64,000 nucleotides of DNA from Celeribacter ethanolicus. GTDB lineage: Bacteria > Pseudomonadota > Alphaproteobacteria > Rhodobacterales > Rhodobacteraceae. Made by a program: the position numbers and the translations under genes. Positions 36,627 to 52,282 of the stretch are shown here, in pieces. The stretch's first letter is position 1. Each line of letters begins with the position of its first letter. The DNA lies in assembly GCF_001550095.1 (NCBI RefSeq), contig NZ_LRUC01000039.1, positions 1-64,000 on the forward strand. Reading direction: 5' to 3'. The notes below the pieces were generated by a model, which ran no database searches, had not been told where the DNA came from, and saw nothing but the letters and a program-made list of their open reading frames with translations.

Positions 36627-37322
36627 ATGTACCGTCGTGTGTTTCTTATGCTTTGTCTTGTGTTTGCAGCGGTTGGCTTCGGCTTTTCCCAGCTCTCGCC
36701 TGCGCTCAAAGCCACGGTCACGGCGAAGCTGTCAGACCTCATCCCGATCTCCTATGGTTCGGCGACAGAAAGCCGGGACGCGGCCCCCTGGGCCGCCTCC
36801 TTGATCGCCGCGGCCCGAGCTCAGATCGGCGTCACGATGCAGTATGACGGGGCCTATGCGCAGATCGCCTATCCCAACGGGGACGTGCCCATGGAGAGCG
36901 GTGTCTGCACCGATGTCGTCATTCGGGCGCTGCGTGCCTCCCACGGTCTCGACCTGCAACAAAGCGTTCACGAGGACATGCTGCGCGCCTTTTCCGACTA
37001 TCCCGCGCTTTGGGGATCGAGCGGCCCGGATTCCAATATCGACCATCGCAGGGTTCCGAACCTGCGCCGCTATTTCGAGCGCCATGGCCAGTCGCTGCCA
37101 GTCAGCGATCGAGCCGAGGACTATCTGCCCGGCGATCTGGTCACCTGGCTTTTCGCGCCCGGCAAGCCCCATATCGGCATCGTGTCTGACCAGACGGAGG
37201 CCCGGACGGGCGTGCCGCTGATCCTGCACAATGCAGGCGCCGGCACGCGGGAACAGGGCTTTCTCTTCGCCTATCCGATCACCGGACATTATCGCCTTTC
37301 TCCCAAACCGACGGGCACTTGA
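36627..37322 (+). CDS. DUF1287 family protein
   Basis: A 231-residue protein exported by an N-terminal hydrophobic segment (VFLMLCLVFAAVGFGFSQL). The mature part matches DUF1287: QIAYPNGDVPMESGVCTDVVIRALR (Cys at about 93, shown as GDVPMESGVCTDVVIRALR) and the late PHIGIVSD with a His, a Cys/His layout like NlpC/P60-type amidases, though catalysis has not been demonstrated to my knowledge. Enzyme activity on peptidoglycan is thus a hypothesis. It lies between the binding protein gene and ssrA. Confidence 0.88.
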   Translation: MYRRVFLMLCLVFAAVGFGFSQLSPALKATVTAKLSDLIPISYGSATESRDAAPWAASLIAAARAQIGVTMQYDGAYAQIAYPNGDVPMESGVCTDVVIRALRASHGLDLQQSVHEDMLRAFSDYPALWGSSGPDSNIDHRRVPNLRRYFERHGQSLPVSDRAEDYLPGDLVTWLFAPGKPHIGIVSDQTEARTGVPLILHNAGAGTREQGFLFAYPITGHYRLSPKPTGT

Positions 37323-37344
37323 AACCCGGAGCCTCATCGCCTAT

Positions 37345-37690
37345 CTGTGATCTGTCCCTTCGGGGACTATGGACATAAACGCGCTCGTAATAAGCGGATC
37401 GGACCCGGGGGCGGTACCCGGCGTCTCCACCAAATACCCCTCTTCGGTTTTCGTTTGGGACCGGCAAGAGATTGGATCATGGGGACGAAATAGGATCGAC
37501 GGACGTCTAAAGGGGTTTGCTTTGTCTCGGTGAGTTACCACCGTTATCGGTACACCTAAGCTAGTTGCAAACGACAACAAAGCTCCGATGGCTCTCGCAG
37601 CGTAAGCTGTGCGAAATATCGAAATCTAAGCCCTTAGGCCTAGCAGCTTAAGGCGGGGTTCGCAGGTACCTGGCAACAGAAACCTGCACT
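37345..37690 (+). ncRNA. ssrA: tmRNA, circularly permuted two-piece alphaproteobacterial type
   Basis: Trans-translation RNA that frees stalled ribosomes and tags the peptide. The gene is permuted: the acceptor piece comes first and ends CGTCTCC-A-CCA (422-432 of 37 kb, i.e. 37422-37432), then a spacer that is removed, then the coding piece beginning GGGGACG at 37481. GGGGACG pairs with CGTCTCC and places a G-U wobble at the third pair, the alanine identity element. The tag frame at 37567-37605 reads ANDNKAPMALAA then TAA, a typical alphaproteobacterial tag. A UUCG hairpin (37354-37367) lies near the 5' end; the 3' border near 37690 is set by the last GCAGGT...ACCTGC-like helix and is approximate. 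Confidence 0.95.
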
Positions 37691-51113: not shown

Positions 51114-51602
51114 ATGTCCCTCCAGACACCGATTTCCCTGAAAGGCTCCCTGCCTGCCCTGACCATCCGCCCCGCGGAAGGCTCCGATTTGCCGCGTCTC
51201 ATGGACATGATCCGCGATCTGAAACCGCTGACCGAGGACAAGCTGAACCTCGACGAGATCAGCGTGATCGACATTCTTCACGCCCCGACCCCCTGGGTGC
51301 GCCTGCTTGTGGCGGAACAGGACGGCACACTGGTCGGCTATGCCGCGCTGGTCGGCGGGTTGCAACTCAGTGCACAAGACCGTGCCATGGAGATGCATCA
51401 CATCTATGTCGAGCCCACGCAACGCGGCCAGGGCGTCGGGCGCGCGCTCTCGGATGCGGCGATGACCATGGCACGCACGCTGGGCTGTGAAACCCTCACC
51501 GTCGCCATCGGCCGCACCAGCGCCATGGCCAAGGCAGCTTATCGCGCCCTCGGCTTCGAGCGCCCGACGCTGCGTGCACCACGCTATGTGATGCCGGTCT
51601 GA
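51114..51602 (+). CDS. GNAT-family N-acetyltransferase (copy 1)
   Basis: A 162-residue acetyl-CoA-dependent acyltransferase. Motif A, which binds the pyrophosphate of acetyl-CoA, is VEPTQRGQGVGRALSDA (Q/RXXGXG/A, about 99-115); the central strand and helix read LLVAEQDGTLVGYAALVGGL and MEMHHIYVEP. The substrate is unknown. It is a tandem paralogue of the next gene. ATG 51114 is chosen since it gives the same N-terminal length as the paralogue, although a GTG at 51030 is in frame. Possible leader-based control lies upstream. Confidence 0.85.
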   Translation: MSLQTPISLKGSLPALTIRPAEGSDLPRLMDMIRDLKPLTEDKLNLDEISVIDILHAPTPWVRLLVAEQDGTLVGYAALVGGLQLSAQDRAMEMHHIYVEPTQRGQGVGRALSDAAMTMARTLGCETLTVAIGRTSAMAKAAYRALGFERPTLRAPRYVMPV

Positions 51603-51653
51603 GCCCCCGATTTCCCTGTTGACAGGACCCGCGCTCTGCCGCAATCTCGCGCC

Positions 51654-51704
51654 ATGACACACGCAACCACCATGACCGTTTTTTATTGGACCGAGCTGAC
51701 ATAG
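51654..51704 (+). CDS. Leader peptide MTHATTMTVFYWTELT
   Basis: A 16-codon ORF with the consecutive aromatic residues Phe, Tyr and Trp (TTT TAT TGG). Its ATG lies about 7 bases after the -10-like hexamer, so the transcript would begin at or next to the start codon, as described for the Sinorhizobium trp leader. A U-rich terminator hairpin follows within 35 bases and the GNAT gene starts 40 bases beyond that. A leaderless start removes the need for a ribosome site. Confidence 0.5.
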   Translation: MTHATTMTVFYWTELT

Positions 51705-51736
51705 AGCGCGGCCCAAAGTCATGACACGATGAAAGG

Positions 51737-51757
51737 CCGCCGCAGGGCGGTTTTTTT
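51737..51757 (+). terminator. Attenuator terminator hairpin
   Basis: CCGCC (51737-51741) pairs with GGCGG (51746-51750) across GCAG, followed by seven T residues (51751-51757). It sits between the aromatic leader peptide and the second GNAT gene. It could alternatively terminate transcription from the first GNAT gene, 135 bp upstream. Confidence 0.75.
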
Positions 51758-51796
51758 ATGTCGAAGATCCCCTGTGGCGCGAAACAGGAGATTGAA

Positions 51797-52282
51797 ATGA
51801 CCCTCATGCAACGCATTGATACCAAGACGCGCCCGGCCGTGATCCGCCCGGCGCGCTGGGGCGACAAGGACGCGCTTCTGGAGATGATCCACGCGCTGGC
51901 GCGTTTCAATGGCGACGAACCGGAGCTCGATCTGCCTGCGCTCATCGACCTTCTGAATGCCGATCTGCCCTGGATCCGCATCCTCGTCGCCGAACGTGAC
52001 GGCGTGCTCGAGGGCTATGCCGCGCTGGTCGCAGGCATTCAGTTGCAGCATGGCAAGAAGGTGATGGACCTGCATCACCTGTTCATCCGGGATCATGTCC
52101 GCGGCGAAGGTCTCGGGCGGCATCTCATCGACGCCAGTCGCGATCTGGCGGAACGGCTCGGCTGTGCGCGCCTCACGGTTTCGACCCGGGAACACAACGC
52201 CGTCGCACAGACCGCCTACCGCGCTTGCGGTTTCGCACCCCACCCGTTCAGCGGAACGCGTTTCGCAATGGAACTGGCGTAA
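51797..52282 (+). CDS. GNAT-family N-acetyltransferase (copy 2)
   Basis: A 161-residue paralogue of the preceding gene: both share IRPA near residue 16, the strand ILVAERDGVLEGYAALVAGIQL, DLHHLFIRDHVRGEGLGRHLIDA (acetyl-CoA loop RGEGLG) and CARLTVSTREHNAVAQTAYRACGF. CAGGAG precedes the ATG at 51797; the frame opens at 51758. The substrate is unknown. If the upstream attenuator is real, an aromatic amino acid, its tRNA charging state or a derived amine is the obvious suspect. Confidence 0.85.
   Translation: MTLMQRIDTKTRPAVIRPARWGDKDALLEMIHALARFNGDEPELDLPALIDLLNADLPWIRILVAERDGVLEGYAALVAGIQLQHGKKVMDLHHLFIRDHVRGEGLGRHLIDASRDLAERLGCARLTVSTREHNAVAQTAYRACGFAPHPFSGTRFAMELA

Follow-up and report, generated by a model that had tools for sequence, protein, structure and literature searches.

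We identified upstream of a GNAT N-acetyltransferase gene of Celeribacter ethanolicus a leader that is probably a ribosome-mediated attenuator, responding most likely to a shortage of charged tRNA-Tyr and carrying a possible second gate at the Shine-Dalgarno sequence of the controlled gene. The element lies in a 64,000-nucleotide stretch of DNA that we analyzed as a whole (hereafter, the window). In the mechanism that we propose, the leader ATG would also be the start of the transcript. A ribosome stalled on the Tyr codon would cover segment 1, allowing segments 2 and 3 to pair (2:3) in place of the terminator, and the RNA polymerase would read on; a ribosome at the stop codon would instead cover segment 2, the terminator (3:4) would form and transcription would stop. 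In a read-through mRNA that kept the terminator hairpin, segment 5 would close the Shine-Dalgarno sequence. If the hairpin was absent, segment 5 would pair with segment 3 and the adjoining loop and leave the Shine-Dalgarno sequence open. Phe and Trp may contribute to the signal in some species.

Table 1. Features of the leader and of the controlled gene in the window.
Feature	Position	Strand	Sequence and role	Basis
Promoter	51619-51647	+	TTGACA (51619-51624)-N17-CAATCT (51642-51647)	Read from sequence
Leader ORF, 16 codons	51654-51704	+	Peptide MTHATTMTVFYWTELT; ATG 51654, stop TAG 51702-51704	Sequence; conserved in relatives
Sensor codons (Phe-Tyr-Trp)	51681-51689	+	TTT TAT TGG; Tyr codon 51684-51686 begins 24 nt before the GCGG of segment 2	
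Segment 1	51671-51697	+	CATGAC 51671-51676 (outer stem P) and TTGGACCGAGCT 51686-51697 (inner stem)	Fold, within-species pairing
Segment 2	51705-51723	+	AGCGCGGCCCAA 51705-51716; GTCATG 51718-51723 closes stem P	Fold, pairing tests
Segment 3	51735-51741	+	GGCCGCC; terminator 5' arm; alternative partners segment 2 (antiterminator) or segment 5	
Segment 4 and T-run	51746-51757	+	GGCGG + TTTTTTT; intrinsic terminator 3' arm and tail	
Segment 5	51769-51781	+	CCCCTGTGGCGCG; complementary to segment 3 + loop; its CCTGT to the Shine-Dalgarno region ACAGGAG	
Segment 6	51784-51792	+	ACAGGAGAT; contains Shine-Dalgarno AGGAG 51786-51790; closed by segment 5	
GNAT N-acetyltransferase gene, 161 aa	51797-52282	+	ATG 51797; controlled gene	Pfam PF00583 (E 6e-13); model pLDDT 88.6

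Architecture of the leader and identity of its target

Direct reading of the DNA located the promoter, the 16-codon Phe-Tyr-Trp leader and the T7 terminator of the original prediction each in its predicted place (Table 1). The transcription start is predicted at, or adjoining, the leader ATG, which would make the leader mRNA leaderless. CAATCT is a weak -10, and a generic promoter scan made no call at 51619-51647. The terminator stem (51735-51741 with 51746-51752) is GC-rich and the seven T residues occupy 51751-51757. The region 51640-51800 folded at -54.2 kcal/mol, compared to -42.5 (sd 4.2) for shuffles (z = -2.8). The fold and the within-species pairing tests described below recovered the 1:2, 2:3 and 3:4 pairings that had been proposed, with weaker covariation for 2:3 and a weak 1:2 hairpin in the window. 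The four-segment layout was therefore borne out, while a possible translational gate 3' of the terminator had been missed. At the Rfam gathering score, there was no match over the leader in the window or in 19 relatives.

Pfam, NCBIfam and the structure model agreed with the earlier description of the downstream gene as an acetyltransferase rather than an aromatic biosynthesis gene. Among the solved chains closest to it are polyamine/diamine and amino-acid N-acetyltransferases. None of the NCBIfam models of known resistance GNATs (AAC, STAT, ArsN, and others) scored above the cut-off, the best one reaching 44 bits against a required 250. Inspection by eye of the open reading frames around the gene in 12 relatives revealed no constant operon partner.

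Conservation of the leader beside related GNAT genes

We examined 90 GNAT loci, 10 from a first genome search and 80 from named records (the best 80 of 274). The first search provided 30 loci (L002-L031), reduced to 10 after leaving out the weaker matches (L024-L031) and removing 12 duplicates; one locus among the Rhizobiales rows (L098) carries the label Marinicella. A short open reading frame with clustered aromatic codons was present in 79/90 upstream regions, both in Rhodobacterales (e.g., MTVFYWTELT, MTAYYWTDLI, MTSYYRRST, TTQYYFRSS, TTVYYPRS, ITYYRRPI, NRWFYRRYS and QTWYFSTRY) and in Rhizobiales (e.g., SYFWLYL, TYFWAYL, RWYFTLHS and AWYFTLLP). We then scored the loci with a strict detector, which requires an ATG open reading frame of 8-24 codons whose nine final residues contain two or more aromatic ones, Tyr among them; the Tyr must lie 17-28 nt ahead of G[CT]GG, and a terminator-arm motif must follow downstream. 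It found leaders in 79/89 GNAT upstream regions (contig-edge locus L099 omitted) and none in 10/89, a fraction that is not an independent test because the detector was devised after the leaders had been seen; the remaining numbers are its controls. The detector found no leader in 890 dinucleotide shuffles, in 934 windows from elsewhere in these loci or in 30 regions taken as tyrS-upstream on the assumption that the match starts at base 1501 of each locus. A loose rule, which asks for the open reading frame and the aromatic residues only, was satisfied by 79/89 GNAT regions, 52/890 shuffles, 19/934 other windows and 7/30 of the presumed tyrS-upstream regions.

A covariance model contributed six more leaders, bringing the GNAT collection to 85. 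All of them have a TTGAC no more than 50 nt upstream of the leader ATG and, in 80, it is 34-37 nt upstream, a spacing that places the expected 5' end of the leader RNA on the leader ATG. Neither of the outcomes named as refuting the original prediction was observed: the leader, the aromatic codons, the promoter spacing and the alternative stems have all been kept beside related GNAT genes, and the promoter, leader and terminator also occur in Pacificibacter, where the neighboring upstream gene is not a GNAT (see below). This conservation argues that the attenuator is real and old, and common to Rhodobacterales and Rhizobiales. The carriers are marine and soil bacteria.

The amino acid probably sensed

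The last ten residues of 81 distinct GNAT leaders contained Tyr in every case, Phe in 71 and Trp in 62. Furthermore, the position of the Tyr codon is nearly fixed. It starts 21-24 nt before segment 2 in 76/81 leaders, of which 71 have a distance of 23-24 nt and 5 a distance of 21-22 nt. The 23-24 nt distance to GCGG holds for 29/33 Rhodobacterales and 42/43 Rhizobiales leaders, and all five leaders of a divergent GNAT group have the Tyr at 21-22 nt. Phe and Trp swap places around this fixed Tyr, generating clusters such as FYW, YYW, YYR, YFW, WYF, VYF and RYC. Codon counts in the GNAT leaders were 92 TAT, 44 TAC, 65 TTT, 12 TTC and 62 TGG.

A similar register recurs in leaders of other genes (see below). 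The tyrS leader AVYFARLP has its Tyr at 23, and the prephenate dehydrogenase leaders TVYYPPLP, FVYYSLTT and GLYYAPLP have their first Tyr at 23, 21 and 20, with the Tyr codons within 17-23. Seven of the nine trpS leaders measured carry Trp-Trp at 22/19. The register rule could not place one prephenate dehydrogenase leader (L168; GLYYAASH, with a GTG start) and one trpS leader (L125). These patterns point to tRNA-Tyr charging as the most likely signal. The combination of Phe, Tyr and Trp in one leader, emphasized in the original prediction, is present in the window but is not essential in the relatives, where only Tyr is constant. Equal sensing of the three amino acids is thus weakened as an explanation, common as Phe and Trp are. 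Tyr alone may nevertheless not be the signal where, as in the window, the leader carries Phe-Tyr-Trp, because of the frequent Phe and Trp residues and because a Phe-Tyr-Trp leader (RFYWPSP; L172, 1501-1551 in reverse complement coordinates) lies before a gene for a class I W/Y tRNA synthetase that, by its sequence, we read as trpS.

Computed switching between antiterminator and terminator

We compared the pairing of segments taken from the same species with that of segments swapped between species, using permutation p-values; swapping leaves some shared ancestry in the comparison, and one leader (L022) was left out when the anchor rule failed. Partner segments paired better within than across species, as anticipated for compensatory changes. 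With both orders together, p was 0.0005 for each of stem P, 1:2 and segment 3 + loop with segment 5 (3:5), and 0.016 for 2:3, which was marginal by order (0.05 and 0.07). The stem P signal is limited to Rhodobacterales, with no covariation in Rhizobiales (p = 0.72). The terminator stem is nearly invariant and its covariation is, therefore, uninformative.

Folding of transcripts ended before segment 4, with the ribosome masked, was computed for 81 leaders (4/85 were out, their start codon not being found by rule). The antiterminator had a probability above 0.5 in 79/81 leaders with the ribosome at Tyr and in 1/81 with the ribosome at the stop codon, a clean contrast. The untranslated leader was not clearly off: the antiterminator was favored in 46/81 leaders without a ribosome (0.93 probability in the window) and in 58/81 with the ribosome near the start. 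The protecting 1:2 hairpin is thus weak, and polymerase might read through a leader that is not translated. Once segment 4 was included, the antiterminator was ahead at equilibrium in only 3/81 leaders with the ribosome at Tyr, 2/81 without a ribosome and 0/81 with the ribosome at the stop; in the window with the ribosome at Tyr, antiterminator and terminator were near even (0.49 vs. 0.45). The terminator wins at equilibrium nearly everywhere, so the switch would have to be kinetic. Kinetic switching is accepted for attenuators. The leader thus combines a promoter-proximal open reading frame with sensor codons, mutually exclusive pairings and, by computation, ribosome-dependent switching, as attenuators do. 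The controlled gene is a GNAT and, unlike the targets of attenuators of aromatic amino-acid biosynthesis, lies outside the pathway whose amino acid would be sensed, though related leaders precede tyrS, prephenate dehydrogenase and trpS.

A possible second gate at the Shine-Dalgarno sequence

Segment 5 has two alternative partners, segment 3 with its loop (in the window, at -21.7 kcal/mol) and the Shine-Dalgarno region in segment 6. The two pairings vary in concert between species (e.g., GCCGCAGGGC with CCCTGTGGC, GCCGTCAGG with CCTGACGGC, GCCACAGAG with CTCTGTGGC, and GCCGCGAGG with CCTCGCGGC), and that with the Shine-Dalgarno region (5:6) gave p = 0.0005 in the permutation test of each order (29 and 39 leaders). 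The 3:5 pairing scored p = 0.0005 in a further test of 23 leaders, 18 of them before non-GNAT genes (2/25 lacked the anchor). We computed the exposure of the Shine-Dalgarno sequence in 78/85 leaders, the other seven having no start codon by rule (four) or an unsuitable spacing or no Shine-Dalgarno motif (three). When the terminator hairpin was kept, the Shine-Dalgarno sequence was mostly paired in 74/78 leaders. When the 3:4 pairs were forbidden, the 3:5 probability exceeded 0.5 in 78/78 and the Shine-Dalgarno sequence was mostly open in 70/78, segment 2 being outside this calculation. Covariation and computed folds therefore predict a hairpin that sequesters the Shine-Dalgarno sequence and is tied to the terminator decision, as in the yxjB leader discussed below. 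One decision could thus gate both transcription and translation. With such a gate, leaky read-through without a stalled ribosome could yield a poorly translated mRNA.

Leaders of the same type before other genes in Alphaproteobacteria

We searched 295 genomes of the window's family and 385 of its class with a covariance model (R1), and the 385 genomes of the class with a second model (R2). In the family, R1 had matches at E <= 0.01 in 132/295 genomes, a number that is not a count of leaders, as many listed weak matches hit the terminator part only. Of 30 loci taken from the matches listed, we inspected the 21 with long matches: nine before GNAT genes (including the window's), seven before trpS, one before prephenate dehydrogenase and four before neither. 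In the class, R1 matched 20/385 genomes at E <= 1e-4 and provided 18 new loci (L150, L153, L157 and L158 were outside the leader search). R2 matched 29/385 genomes at the same threshold, with 30 matches; we inspected 14 of these loci in addition to some already examined with R1, and left out L169, L171, L173, L174, L176 and L178-L181. Within the genome that contains the window, the GNAT leader was the sole full-length match with a convincing E-value (1e-18), the second-best match (6e-4) being confined to the final part of the model.

Several of the genes behind these leaders act in aromatic metabolism or tRNA charging. We identified a tyrS (L142; TIGR00234, E 7e-107), a trpS (L144; TIGR00233, by Pfam and NCBIfam), three further W/Y tRNA synthetases (L143, L148 and L172, by Pfam), four prephenate dehydrogenases with the PDH_N domain (L129, L168, L170 and L177) and an anthranilate synthase I (L182). 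The seven trpS genes of the family were named from their own sequence, whereas Pfam was run for L143, L144, L148 and L172. Two small proteins were also among the targets, a stand-alone S4 protein (L146; S4 domain) and a protein resembling the tail of TyrRS (L167), the latter a weak match (E 7e-4) below the Pfam cut-off. The protein at L147 is 66% identical to it and had no Pfam match. Small stand-alone S4 or TyrRS-tail-like proteins (L146, L164 and L167) sit under WYF/AYF leaders and may be TyrRS companions in one regulon. Other targets are GNATs, recognized by Pfam/NCBIfam (L114, L145, L149, L151, L166 and L175) or, for L165, taken as such from a sequence start resembling that of L163. The GNATs of L145/L161, L149/L163, L151/L162 and L166 come from elsewhere in the class, outside the window's family, and resemble the window GNAT only remotely; the L163 protein aligned with it with an hhalign probability of 96.6 and 25% identity. 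We discarded three matches in which a conserved peptide end, MEPNLVIE(F/Y)Y, comes before a terminator (L136, L140 and L159), which precede unlike reading frames and probably represent the 3' end of a gene lying upstream, and two model matches without an aromatic leader (L126 and L132).

The trpS, tyrS and prephenate dehydrogenase leaders resemble the GNAT leaders in their leader-GCGG-terminator plan, similar sensor register and 3:5 complementarity. They differ in their targets, which belong to aromatic metabolism or tRNA charging, whereas the GNAT, on present knowledge, is outside both. The second gate suggests that alphaproteobacterial leader attenuators couple termination and translation start via one interchangeable segment, a design that could be common to all of these leaders. 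More tentatively, a Tyr-codon attenuation regulon of Alphaproteobacteria (tyrS, prephenate dehydrogenase and the stand-alone TyrRS-tail-like proteins) may have drawn in GNATs of at least two divergent subfamilies. The GNAT would then be a defense or repair enzyme induced by blocked Tyr-tRNA charging, such as an N-acetyltransferase for toxic aromatic amino-acid analogs, D-tyrosine or TyrRS inhibitors, and the leaders would share a double-gate RNA in which the terminator 5' arm and loop are the antidote to the segment that closes the Shine-Dalgarno sequence. We regard this scenario as possible but doubtful.

Relationship to known attenuators

The closest precedent within Alphaproteobacteria is the trpL-trpE(G) attenuator of Sinorhizobium meliloti, which is reported to have a short open reading frame with its ATG at the RNA 5' end, consecutive sensor codons and an antiterminator/terminator pair (PMC7298713). 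It differs from the GNAT leader in having Trp sensor codons and a biosynthetic target instead of a constant Tyr and a GNAT. The second gate has a counterpart in the yxjB leader of the Gram-positive Bacillus subtilis, where a ribosome stalled on the leader peptide is reported to prevent both termination and translation repression by a terminator and a hairpin sequestering the Shine-Dalgarno sequence (PMC6851288). There, tylosin is required for the stall and a 23S rRNA methyltransferase is controlled; the GNAT leader has aromatic codons, and one of its segments pairs with either the terminator arm and loop or the Shine-Dalgarno sequence. Sensor-codon leader peptides with terminators were also predicted before trp, trpS and leuS in Actinobacteria, a different phylum, and the same report describes no RNA structure conserved ahead of tyrosine operons there (PMC1262725). 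A survey of the open-licence literature, by title and start of abstract, returned no paper on such a leader before a GNAT gene. Thus, what appears to be new in ribosome-mediated attenuation is a Tyr-centered leader that controls a GNAT and has a covarying translational gate. If true, an acetyltransferase becomes tied to tyrosine supply. The leader would tell when the GNAT is needed (when tyrosine codons stall) and, therefore, narrow the substrate search, providing a handle on a group of GNAT enzymes.

Alternative explanations

The same RNA switch could also respond to a drug or metabolite that arrests the nascent chain at the aromatic cluster, as happens in resistance-gene leaders, and is inactivated by the GNAT, the signal then not being tRNA charging. 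The tylosin-dependent stall reported at yxjB (PMC6851288) is a precedent, and the solved relatives of the GNAT include amine, amino-acid-analog and aminoglycoside acetyltransferases. We consider this unlikely, however: unlike a conserved arrest peptide, the cluster varies around the constant Tyr, the same leader type precedes tyrS and prephenate dehydrogenase, and the resistance models all stayed below cut-off.

Less probable still is that the leader reads the modification of tRNAs for U-starting codons (ms2i6A37, or queuosine in tRNA-Tyr), with iron or queuine supply as the signal. Undermodification of tRNAs affects trp and phe attenuation in enterobacteria, the cluster is built of UAU, UUU and UGG codons, and the window has an upstream solute-binding-protein gene, which presumably serves iron. 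Yet Tyr is never swapped for another residue with U-starting codons in the 81 leaders, TAC codons also occur, and the prephenate dehydrogenase and tyrS targets suggest amino-acid supply. It is similarly improbable that the leader peptide, the terminated leader RNA of ~100 nt, or both act in trans like peTrpL/rnTrpL of S. meliloti, with the GNAT as one target among others. Like rnTrpL, which is reported to start at the trpL ATG (PMC7298713), the leader RNA would be leaderless, and the C-terminus of the peptide is much alike within Rhizobium. However, it differs strongly between orders, and pairing in cis explains the conserved segments. Finally, a chance open reading frame in front of what is simply the terminator of the preceding GNAT gene, which ends at 51602 and whose transcript would also reach this terminator, has a negligible probability and is refuted by the relatives, since the promoter, leader and terminator are kept in Rhizobiales and, behind a solute-binding-protein gene, in Pacificibacter (L017/L018), and none of the 890 shuffles had a leader. 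Attenuation by charged tRNA-Tyr shortage is, therefore, the reading that we retain.

Other features of the window

The GNAT gene that precedes the leader (51114-51602) is 44% identical to the controlled GNAT over the match. Close pairs of GNAT matches are also present in six further genomes of the genus. Inspected by eye, the DNA upstream of five such preceding GNAT genes, including the window's, has a TTGACA and no clear aromatic leader. The window also encodes an alphaproteobacterial (permuted) tmRNA at 37315-37690 (Rfam RF01849).
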